Source: a virus
Direction: 5' to 3' (one strand)
DNA length: 43,434 bases
Virus record (IMG/VR): IMGVR_UViG_3300028025_004598
Location: 1-43,434 of that record
This document shows, piece by piece, positions 23,441 through 26,460 of this stretch (position 1 is the first letter of the stretch; every line of letters begins with the position of its first letter). The position numbers and the translations under genes were made by a program. The notes below the pieces were generated by a model, which was not told the DNA's origin, did not search any database, and was given only the letters and a program-made list of their open reading frames with translations.

Positions 23441-23444
23441 ATTG

Positions 23445-23517
23445 AGCCTCTGGCCGGCTATGATCCAGCGACCTTTTGATTACAAATCAAATGCTCTACC
23501 AACTGAGCTACAGAGGC
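23445..23517 (-). tRNA. tRNA-Thr (anticodon TGT)
   Basis: Acceptor GCCTCTG/CAGAGGC, D arm GCTC...GAGC, anticodon stem TTTGA/TCAAA with loop TTTGTAA. The T stem GCTGG/CCGGC pairs, but the T loop is ATCATAG, not TTCRANN, which is unusual. CCA is not encoded. Confidence 0.85.
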
Positions 23518-24032: not shown

Positions 24033-24057
24033 GAGAGTTCGGAAGGGTGCGACCCAG

Positions 24058-24142
24058 CGGAAAAGATGCGATTCGAACGCATGGTACTTTTCAGTACGAC
24101 GGTTTTCAAGACCGTTGGTTTAAACCACTCACCCACTTTTCC
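24058..24142 (-). tRNA. tRNA-Ser (anticodon TGA)
   Basis: Acceptor GGAAAAG/CTTTTCC with discriminator G, anticodon stem ACGGT/ACCGT with loop CTTGAAA, a long variable arm GTACTGAAAAGTAC, and T arm ATGCG-TTCGAAT-CGCAT. All class II tRNA-Ser features are present; 85 bases. It begins immediately after the tmRNA coding piece. Confidence 0.93.
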
Positions 24143-24294
24143 AGTTCCCATTTAACTAAGCCAAATGGGATAAATGCTTTGAGTAAAACTACCTACTAGG
24201 CAGCAATGCTCATATGGTTTTGGTTGCCGTTTAAAGCGTTAAATAACTCTCAGTATACCGTACCTCATATGCAGTCAAAGCCAAATACACGCCC
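24143..24294 (-). ncRNA. ssrA: tmRNA coding piece (5' half) of a circularly permuted tmRNA
   Basis: The RNA begins GGGCGTG, followed by TATTTGGCTTTGA, equivalent to ATTCTGGATTCGA of E. coli tmRNA, then CTGCATAT (24274-24267). GGGCGTG pairs with CACGTCC of the acceptor piece, including G3-U70, and CTGCATAT is the exact complement of ATATGCAG there (helix P2). The tag frame runs 24228-24199: GGC resume codon, GNQNHMSIAA, then TAG TAG, inside a CTGCC/GGTAG hairpin as in helix P5. A TCCCATTT/AAATGGGA hairpin (24146-24170) ends the piece next to tRNA-Ser. 3' boundary is inferred. Confidence 0.86.
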
Positions 24295-24317
24295 ATATAT
24301 GATGTATTGTCGGTTTG
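24295..24317 (-). other. intervening segment of the permuted tmRNA gene
   Basis: These 23 bases separate the CCA of the acceptor piece from the first G of the coding piece. In known permuted tmRNA genes such a segment is removed by tRNA-processing enzymes, leaving two RNAs held by base pairing. Confidence 0.7.
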
Positions 24318-24384
24318 TGGTGGACGTGCTGGGTGTCGAACCCAGGTCCTGCATATTTTCCAGTGTACCTCACTGAATTATTCG
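24318..24384 (-). ncRNA. ssrA: tmRNA acceptor piece (3' half), lies upstream of coding piece
   Basis: The 3' end reads GGAC, T arm CTGGG-TTCGACA-CCCAG (24345-24329), CACGTCC (24328-24322), discriminator A and encoded CCA (24320-24318), the typical tmRNA 3' domain. No 5' acceptor strand lies before it; the matching GGGCGTG is found downstream at 24294. Upstream of the P2 strand ATATGCAG is a CAGTG-AGGTA-CACTG hairpin (24375-24361). The 5' boundary is set at the end of the tRNA-Met-like gene and is inferred. Confidence 0.86.
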
Positions 24385-24668: not shown

Positions 24669-25511
24669 TTACAGGAGATCTAAATCTACTCCGTGAGTAT
24701 CAAACCACCATTCCTTCGGCATGTCTGGATGTTTAACTACTAACCGTTCGTAACGTACCTTTGCTTTGTTTTGACGCTCCACTTCTTGTGTGAAGTATGG
24801 GTGTTCCATAGTACCACCCTGTACATACAGTTCGCGTAGCAATTTACGCAAAATATATCCTTGCTTTTGTGGTCCAGGTTTGTAGCCCGAGTCGATGATG
24901 CGTTCGATTGTTTCTCGCAGCGTATCCAGCGCGGACTTTACTTGTTCGCCATTCGCCATGAGCTCAAGGCGTTCCATGCCGAATCCAACGTCTATGAATT
25001 GATCTAACGTGTTCACTATGTTGCCTATTTCCACTCCGTTCACATAGAATTCAGTACAGTAACCACCCATTTCACCATCCGACCAGATACATTCCTCGTC
25101 TGTGGTGATGTTTAGGTGAGGGTACGCTTCGTACATGTGTTTCCACTCGTTTAGTTTGTCTGGGTGTATGGTGATTGTGTCTACTTTGATTTCGAGTGTG
25201 GATTCGATGAATCGCATCCAAAAGTGAACCGCTTGTTGCATGGTTAGCTCGCCAAATGAAAATAAACCGAGCATATTGAAGTGTAGCAAGTGTGTACCGT
25301 CGCCTATTTCCTCAATGTCCTGCAAACGAATACACGATTGTATGTTTGCGATTGTAGTGTTGTCCGGGTTTTTAAATTTGTGCTTGAATTGCTGCATACC
25401 CGCAGGACAAAACAAGGTAGTATCGTCGTATGGATTTACCTTGTTGTCGTGCTGAAACGGAATGGAATATGACTCGCAGTATTGTTGATATAGTGTGCGG
25501 ATGTCTTTCAT
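24669..25511 (-). CDS. alaS: compact alanyl-tRNA synthetase-like protein
   Basis: The 280-residue class II synthetase matches the AlaRS N-terminal half. It has LFCPAGMQQFKHKF at 33-46, motif 2 QSCIRLQDIEEIG with R62 followed by HFNMLGLFSFGE, SDGEMGGYCTEF at 144-155, and motif 3 DVGFGMERLE at 174-183. A helical part GYILRKLLREL (218-228) and DTHGVDLDLL (271-280) resemble GYVLRRIIRRA and DTYGFPVDLT of the tRNA-recognition region. Bacterial AlaRS is about 875 residues; editing and C-Ala domains are absent. Being adjacent to tRNA-Ala and tmRNA, it probably charges one or both. Confidence 0.83.
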   Translation of the reverse strand: MKDIRTLYQQYCESYSIPFQHDNKVNPYDDTTLFCPAGMQQFKHKFKNPDNTTIANIQSCIRLQDIEEIGDGTHLLHFNMLGLFSFGELTMQQAVHFWMRFIESTLEIKVDTITIHPDKLNEWKHMYEAYPHLNITTDEECIWSDGEMGGYCTEFYVNGVEIGNIVNTLDQFIDVGFGMERLELMANGEQVKSALDTLRETIERIIDSGYKPGPQKQGYILRKLLRELYVQGGTMEHPYFTQEVERQNKAKVRYERLVVKHPDMPKEWWFDTHGVDLDLL

Positions 25512-25722: not shown

Positions 25723-26334
25723 TTAAAAGGTAAGTGCTAAATTGAAGCCCAAACGTTTGTTTATGTCCTGGATTGTAGTTTCAGTGCAAACTGGGTCAAT
25801 TGTGTTTGTGAATACTAGTGCATGTACTACTGTATGTGTACGTAAATTGTATACTACTTTCCAGCATTTAGTGGGTATACGCATTTTTGCTTTAACGGTG
25901 GTTGTTTCCCATATACCACCACATATCACTAGCAGTGAATCGGTTTGTGATTCGTGGCGTATTTTGGTTTCCCACTGTTTCCACACACCACGATTGAGTG
26001 CAGTGGTTTGGGGTAAACAATTGTACAGCCTAAATGTTTCGTCGGATAAATGGCAATCGTACGCGAAGTCTTCCGCGTTTGCTAAATGTCCACGGTCGTA
26101 GCCTGAATGGCTATATTCGTGGTTGAGTAGTGGTAGTTTGGTTGGGTTTGTCCATCGGTCGCTGCGTTTACAGTCTCCCCCGCCTTTGTATATGACGTAT
26201 TTTACGTATACCGGTTGCTTGAGTTTTTTACTGATGTATGACTTGTAGTGTGGGGTGGAAATGATTGTGTCAATGGTTTGGCTGAATAGCGCAGATGTAA
26301 CTAGTAGCAGTATAGCTAGTATTGTGTGTTTCAT
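25723..26334 (-). CDS. secreted DNA/RNA non-specific endonuclease
   Basis: 203 residues with a signal peptide MKHTILAILLLVTSALFSQ. The beta-beta-alpha-metal active site is YDRGHLANAEDF (DRGH at 80-83) with ALNRGVWKQWE supplying the metal-binding Asn. It resembles NucA/Serratia-type nucleases, exported to periplasm or medium. It could degrade host or competing DNA at the envelope; this is inferred. Confidence 0.88.
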   Translation of the reverse strand: MKHTILAILLLVTSALFSQTIDTIISTPHYKSYISKKLKQPVYVKYVIYKGGGDCKRSDRWTNPTKLPLLNHEYSHSGYDRGHLANAEDFAYDCHLSDETFRLYNCLPQTTALNRGVWKQWETKIRHESQTDSLLVICGGIWETTTVKAKMRIPTKCWKVVYNLRTHTVVHALVFTNTIDPVCTETTIQDINKRLGFNLALTF

Positions 26335-26382: not shown

Positions 26383-26386
26383 GAAG

Positions 26387-26460
26387 TGGAGAATGCCAGA
26401 GTCAAACTGGCGACCTCTACATTGCAAGTGTAGCGCTCTAATCAACTGAGCTAATCCCCC
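26387..26460 (-). tRNA. tRNA-Ala (anticodon TGC)
   Basis: Acceptor GGGGGAT/ATTCTCC contains the G3-U70 alanine identity pair and discriminator A. D arm GCTC/GAGC, anticodon stem CTACA/TGTAG with loop CTTGCAA, T arm GCCAG-TTTGACT-CTGGC. CCA is not encoded. The cognate synthetase-like gene lies 0.9 kb downstream. Confidence 0.95.

Follow-up and report, generated by a model that had tools for sequence, protein, structure and literature searches.

A 280-residue alanyl-tRNA synthetase homologue without editing and C-Ala domains in large phages and on Rhizobium plasmids

Alanyl-tRNA synthetase (AlaRS) confuses serine with alanine, a weakness said to be the reason why it needs editing. The textbook example of an operational RNA code is the way in which this enzyme recognises one acceptor-stem base pair. 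The locus described here raises the question whether an AlaRS of only 280 residues, devoid of any domain for proofreading, can be a charging enzyme, and for which RNAs. The window analysed is an entire virus record (IMG/VR record IMGVR_UViG_3300028025_004598; 43,434 bases), in which an earlier note had placed, at 24669-25511, an AlaRS of 280 residues lacking the editing and C-Ala domains. These coordinates are correct and the strand is minus: an open reading frame with an ATG start encodes 280 residues there, and on the plus strand this region has stops throughout. Other reading frames of the window resemble those of a large T4-like phage, including DNA polymerase, clamp, RecA/UvsX, helicase, pieces of ribonucleotide reductase, GroEL and queuosine-type genes, as judged by eye from the translations and not by a family search.

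Domain architecture and conserved residues

The window protein is recognised by the Pfam family PF01411 (tRNA-synt_2c; E-value 4.5e-20, 72.1 bits, cut-off 30.3) and by PDB sequences of AlaRS (4.6e-10). It also matches the NCBIfam model alaS (TIGR00344; 5.1e-21, 74.6 bits), as do five other members of the family (76.3-84.4 bits), in all cases far under the cut-off of 457, so that annotation pipelines can miss proteins of this kind. A SerRS profile gave no match at E 0.01, whereas AlaRS profiles match. An AlphaFold2 model built from a 33-row alignment (mean pLDDT 91.9, pTM 0.85) has AlaRS crystal structures at the top ranks in Foldseek (1.5e-14), and with VIA-align it superimposes on residues 1-411 of E. 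coli AlaRS (Z 23.7, rmsd 3.8, 278 residues). AlaRS entries score Z 23.9-19.1 in this comparison, and the best other family is GlyRS alpha with Z 15.3. Amino acid:carrier protein ligases, which we take to have a SerRS-like fold without a tRNA-binding domain, are absent among the structural matches listed.

Residues were compared in an alignment of 34 rows, made up of the window plus 33 loci out of 58 collected (55 viral, two from genomes, and the phage record LR745206); the other 25 are near-duplicates, copies at contig ends, broken copies and a few that were not chosen. PF01411 is matched in all 34 members and the editing domain PF07973 (tRNA_SAD) in none, and there are two weak stray matches to other Pfam families. 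The editing domain was also not found anywhere in 35 virus records, including the window, that were scanned for it; such records may be fragments, and this limits every absence stated here for the family.

The protein is thus an AlaRS catalytic core (class II; residues 1-190, approximately) followed by remnant tRNA-recognition helices (about 194-280), from which the editing and C-Ala domains have been lost, and the domain assignment given in the earlier note is borne out by the Pfam, PDB sequence and fold matches. Its description as a catalytic core with a shortened tRNA-recognition part is also right. The mini-AlaRS ends at a position corresponding to about residue 411 of the 876 of E. coli AlaRS, close to where the tRNA-recognition domain finishes and before C-Ala, and in the alignment about 130 residues internal to the E. 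coli ligase half are deleted. The deletions comprise the greater part of the hairpin that joins the pocket Asn to the pocket Asp, and the central portion of the tRNA-recognition domain; with about 85 residues left after the catalytic core, this domain is not intact. In addition, the motif-2 loop falls short of its E. coli counterpart by four residues, and in the alignment the stretch with the 'route separator' glycine and GGPPG are absent.

Ten residues, R62, D65, F78, M80, W143, N164, V166, D174, G176 and R181, are invariant in the 34 aligned members and are kept in four further copies from Rhizobium plasmids. R62 and F78 belong to motif 2 and R181 to motif 3, and W143, N164, V166, D174 and G176 line the alanine site. 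The labels W170, N212 and G237 for the Trp, Asn and Gly of this site, as well as the roles of D65 and M80, are presumed here. A loss of ATP- or alanine-binding residues, which had been named beforehand as evidence against the assignment, did not occur, since all 34 members retain every residue that was checked. PMC12143591 names Arg68 and Phe89 (motif 2), Arg232 (motif 3), Val204 and Asp225 (Asp235 in E. coli) as residues in contact with ATP and alanine; they fall on R62, F78, R181, V166 and D174 in our own reading of the alignment. As far as residues can show, the active site is intact.

The wall of the alanine pocket is of interest with respect to serine. In the AlaRS of Methylomonas the position of the L219M exchange lies six residues before the pocket Asp, as described in PMC12143591. 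The hairpin at this site is about 13 residues shorter in the mini-AlaRS family, and the equivalent place, set by counting residues, is occupied by Pro in 18, Thr in 15 and Cys in one of the 34 members. Serine rejection of the Methylomonas L219M type stays a guess for the mini-AlaRS, because the position was matched by counting along a hairpin of different length.

For the residues that read the G3:U70 base pair we use what we take to be their E. coli numbers, N303 (in PSNENRGY) and D400 (in LYDTYG); the identity of the residues was confirmed. According to PMC10036535, these readers in AlaRS are an Asn and an Asp. At the N303 place the 34 members have Asn (19), Pro (8), His (6) or Gly (1), and at the D400 place Asp (25), Glu (4), Asn (3) or Ser (2); the window protein has Pro (P214) and Asp (D271), respectively. 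The six members with His at N303 (L079, L080, L081, L084, L086 and L094) have Asn, Glu or Ser at D400. Among these rows, which are related, the two readers seem to change together. The AlaRS of Tupanvirus (TuAlaRS) likewise has proline at the N303 equivalent and yet charges G3:U70 RNA specifically; it functions without either reader, and charges tRNA-Ala and a microhelix to similar levels, as described in PMC10036535. Loss of N303 therefore need not argue against function, and TuAlaRS shows that a mini-AlaRS can work without C-Ala.

Distribution, phylogeny and selection

A first scan detected the family in six IMG/VR contigs and a profile-guided scan in 55, with identities of 45-95% and contigs of up to 508 kb; some of the 55 are near-duplicates, and a few are partial or broken. 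Only one of 50,697 named phage records, LR745206 (634,780 bp), clearly holds a member, as found by three queries, and the other matches (24-38% identity) are to what looks like ordinary AlaRS. A scan of genomes gave two Rhizobiales genomes with a family member, a low number that is probably due to the narrow search patterns. In plasmid records, 89 of 116 matches carry the family at 60-80% identity and 90 of the 116 are from Rhizobium, where the copies are often named 'alanine--tRNA ligase-related protein' in RefSeq. The idea of a phage-only family was rejected once these plasmid copies appeared.

Family tree analysis with 43 rows places the mini-AlaRS proteins in one clade (support 100/100), at 2.9 changes per column from four full-length AlaRS. 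The comparison with full AlaRS that the earlier note had suggested therefore yields a separate clade, relative to these four sequences. TuAlaRS is not in the tree; profile E-values are 7.6e-24 to 7.4e-20 for bacterial, 2.9e-19 to 2.8e-18 for human and 3e-8 for archaeal AlaRS. The six Rhizobium rows form one clade (100/100) inside an unresolved fan of phage branches, and transfer between phage and Rhizobium may have gone either way; one of the six, L399, is broken and sits on a very long branch.

The family is under purifying selection. The window gene and that of its relative L002 (93% identical) give a dN/dS of 0.045, and the phage pairs above 80% identity with computable dS give values of 0.028-0.082, except for L086/L094 (0.49), a pair with almost no differences; dS was saturated in most pairs. 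The Rhizobium copies are under looser selection than the phage copies (0.13-0.22). A chance reading frame is excluded by the relatives in 55 IMG/VR contigs together with the dN/dS of 0.045. Broken copies exist (L092, L098 and L399), and in L096 a frame of 105 residues (1780-2097) holds the start and the end of a mini-AlaRS with the middle absent, by natural deletion or assembly error.

Genomic context and RNA companions

In the window, the mini-AlaRS gene lies in a tRNA island on the minus strand. Upstream of it is a tRNA-Ala (UGC; 26386-26460) with G3:U70 and A73; past it follow a permuted, two-piece tmRNA (24196-24374; 66.8 bits, cut-off 47), a tRNA-Ser (UGA; 24057-24142), which is the next gene after the tmRNA, and a tRNA-Thr (UGU; 23444-23517). 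The acceptor of the tmRNA (5' GGGCGTG, 3' CACGTCC-A-CCA) also has G3:U70 and A73, and its predicted tag is GNQNHMSIAA. Between tRNA-Ala and mini-AlaRS a frame on the same strand (25723-26334) belongs to the DNA/RNA non-specific nuclease family and has a signal-like N-terminus.

Elsewhere in the family, 20 loci have any tRNA in the stretch, and in nine of the 18 measured for distance the nearest one lies at most 600 nt from the mini-AlaRS gene. The 508-kb phage G014 has, in this order, SerRS (440 bits), a tRNA array including tRNA-Ala, a GlyRS-like frame of 266 residues, mini-AlaRS and TyrRS (280 bits), all within 12.5 kb and with other frames interspersed. In LR745206 a GlyRS-like frame directly precedes mini-AlaRS, and tRNA-Gly and tRNA-Ala directly follow. 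These GlyRS-like frames may represent a second shrunken synthetase, as they have about 246-266 residues, score far under the GlyRS cut-off and directly precede mini-AlaRS in two huge phages (L007, 19208-19948; L056, 9146-9946). A homologue of the tRNA-His guanylyltransferase Thg1 (L007 in LR745206, 21388-22227) stands beside the mini-synthetases, and in G030 a similarly sized class II synthetase core (47757-48230) is found some kb away from mini-AlaRS. Some 20 related T4-like contigs have the gene in a replication module instead, near exonuclease, UvsX and helicase genes (named by eye), mostly with no tRNAs close by.

The Rhizobium copies have other neighbours. In four annotated plasmid stretches the gene is amid transporter and sugar genes, and no carrier-protein gene is listed beside it; a RES/Xre toxin-antitoxin pair adjoins it in two of these four (L395-L398). 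A scan of seven Rhizobiales stretches showed no tRNA gene in any of them. Elsewhere in their genomes, the L097 and L098 hosts have full-size open frames with an editing domain.

Of 13 family records, scanned in full or over part of their length, eight have a tRNA-Ala, which was not found in G004, G024, G025, G030 and G031; it is present in none of three control records, too few to claim enrichment. Leaving out repeats within a record, 17 of 18 tRNA-Ala rows with UGC, GGC or CGC anticodons have G3:U70 and A73, and the eighteenth (G014) gave no clean fold in a simple stem finder. Three rows called 'Ala(AGC)' have U3:A70 and a length of about 88 nt, which makes their assignment to tRNA-Ala doubtful.

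A tmRNA is a less common companion. Of the 57 virus records (55 IMG/VR contigs, LR745206 and the window), 35 were scanned for tmRNA and PF07973, and eight have a tmRNA over the cut-off (G000, G002, G014, G016, G028, its near-duplicate G029, G030 and G031). As 402 of 18,146 phages have a tmRNA (PMC9004378), this gave a first impression of enrichment, which was gone when compared per base with 49 controls: 1.96 per Mb in family records and 2.16 per Mb in controls. The controls are 26 records with relatives of the window DNA polymerase and 23 with UvsX relatives of at least 20 kb, all free of mini-AlaRS by the family profile; their contigs are shorter, the screen for absence of mini-AlaRS ran without a positive control, and by record four of 49 have a tmRNA over the cut-off (Fisher p 0.11). 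Of the link to tmRNA suggested earlier there remains the adjacent permuted tmRNA, which is real and has G3:U70; a special association does not follow from these rates. Permuted tmRNAs in phages were already known (PMC9004378). Further phage tmRNAs, one-piece and permuted, were noted at L143 (6103-6434), L148 (16709-17201), L304 (556-948) and L388 (3785-4199); they have unusual predicted tags, one of which ends in LEIA and one of which has 28 residues.

Proposed function and comparison with known systems

We propose that the gene probably encodes a catalytically competent, editing-free minimal AlaRS of a large T4-like phage, which charges acceptor stems with G3:U70. Homology and conservation suggest that alanine and ATP would be converted to Ala-AMP in a normal class II AlaRS site, and that alanine would then be passed to the CCA end of an acceptor stem bearing G3:U70. 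The loop equivalent to N303 and the helix equivalent to D400 would hold this stem, instead of C-Ala gripping the tRNA at its elbow. Minihelix-like substrates, as had been suggested for the protein, are plausible, since only catalysis and acceptor-stem contact are left; the special tie to tmRNA that went with this suggestion is not upheld. The putative substrates would be the phage tRNA-Ala, the phage tmRNA where present, and those of the host as well, and the gain would be that alanine charging continues under phage control during infection. Features that weigh against the proposal are the shorter motif-2 loop, the missing 'route separator' stretch, the variation at the N303 and D400 places, the low alaS score, the records in which no tRNA-Ala was found, and the copies that lie in replication modules or, on Rhizobium plasmids, away from tRNA genes. 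Having no proofreading of its own, the enzyme may leave misloaded Ser or Gly to host editing, or misloading may be prevented by the altered pocket wall.

The permuted tmRNA beside the gene could also suggest an alanine ligase dedicated to phage tmRNA, which would sustain ribosome rescue in infection and would have shed its grip on full tRNAs. Both the window and L002 have a tmRNA on the same strand, about 300 nt past the mini-AlaRS gene, tmRNA and tRNA-Ala share G3:U70, and eight records have a tmRNA. We regard this reading as quite unlikely, as L001, with a protein 95% identical, has no tmRNA at that spot, the per-base rate equals that of the controls, and 27 of the 35 records (many of them fragments), including the 635-kb LR745206, have none. 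Reduction of the tRNA-binding parts would also fit a repurposed AlaRS paralogue, an option raised in the earlier note, that transfers alanine (or lactate) to a carrier protein, peptide, lipid or protein lysine; AlaRS paralogues of such kind are listed in PMC9437257, and AlaRS can serve as a lactyltransferase according to PMC12143591. This applies above all to the Rhizobium branch, with its transport and sugar genes, no tRNA gene nearby and, for L097 and L098, full-size frames with an editing domain in the host. The parts that were kept, however, are the very helices carrying the acceptor-stem readers, many phage copies are within islands of tRNA and synthetase genes, and the annotated plasmid copies have no carrier-protein gene beside them, all of which makes repurposing rather unlikely.

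Phages remodel host translation, and a compact gene such as this one might encode a decoy or inhibitor that blocks translation in the host by binding its tRNA-Ala or by pairing with its AlaRS, the active site being kept for binding. This is very unlikely, since residues for catalysis and not only for binding are invariant in all 34 members, which a decoy would not need, and the companions are ordinary-looking tRNAs and synthetases. Hardly tenable is a decaying, functionless fragment of a captured host alaS: broken copies such as L098, L399 and L092 would fit, but the dN/dS values of 0.03-0.08 in phages and 0.13-0.22 in Rhizobium, and a length of about 280 residues kept across a very diverse clade, speak against it and contradict it for the phage family.

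Starting again from the minimal AlaRS charging G3:U70 stems, a wider picture can be offered tentatively, as possible rather than probable. Large phages and rhizobial plasmids may share an old family of 280-residue AlaRS, the smallest natural alanine chargers, which would read the acceptor-stem code with two residual contacts and reject serine at activation by means of a rebuilt hairpin behind the alanine pocket, making the editing domain unneeded; in some phages it may form a self-contained module for alanine together with a tRNA-Ala and a tmRNA of the phage itself. We know of no natural alanine-charging enzyme smaller than 280 residues. A natural, selected and editing-free AlaRS of this size, its active site intact, offers a direct test of the least protein needed for reading G3:U70, and of whether AlaRS can dispense with proofreading. 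With it, alanine would join the charging reactions potentially taken over by large phages. Synthetases in huge phages are known (PMC7162821); that survey confirmed them with TIGRFAM HMMs, and the word 'alanyl' does not occur in its main text.

Among known systems, full-length bacterial AlaRS (alaS; 876 residues in E. coli) shares the catalytic core, the motifs, the alanine pocket and DTxG at the D400 position with the mini-AlaRS, which differs in lacking editing and C-Ala domains, GGPPG and about 130 residues of the ligase half, and in its shorter motif-2 loop. AlaX proteins (PF07973) are also an AlaRS fragment encoded as a separate gene, but consist of the editing part alone, whereas mini-AlaRS is the opposite half. 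The AlaRS alpha subunit of Nanoarchaeum equitans acts together with a beta subunit carrying the remaining parts, including the editing domain, as described in PMC10036535, whereas no PF07973 was found in the phage records searched. R. etli p42b WP_073990415.1 and like Rhizobium proteins belong to the same family, with the same catalytic residues in four copies; unlike the window gene, they are plasmid-borne, outside a tRNA island, have Asn at N303 and are under looser selection. Searches of the open-access literature gave no publication describing a mini-AlaRS of phages or of Rhizobium. Close in kind is TuAlaRS, by which a mini-AlaRS as such is already published (PMC10036535). It is likewise virus-encoded, without editing or C-Ala domain, with motifs 1-3 kept and with proline at N303 as in the window protein. 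In contrast, TuAlaRS has 461 residues, an intact tRNA-recognition domain and a descent near the AlaRS of its host according to PMC10036535, while the present family has about 280 residues, has lost much of that domain, scores best with bacterial AlaRS, and is found in phages and on Rhizobium plasmids. What is new, as far as the open-access literature tells, is the size of 280 residues, the reduction of tRNA recognition, the phage and plasmid family, and its tRNA-island context.
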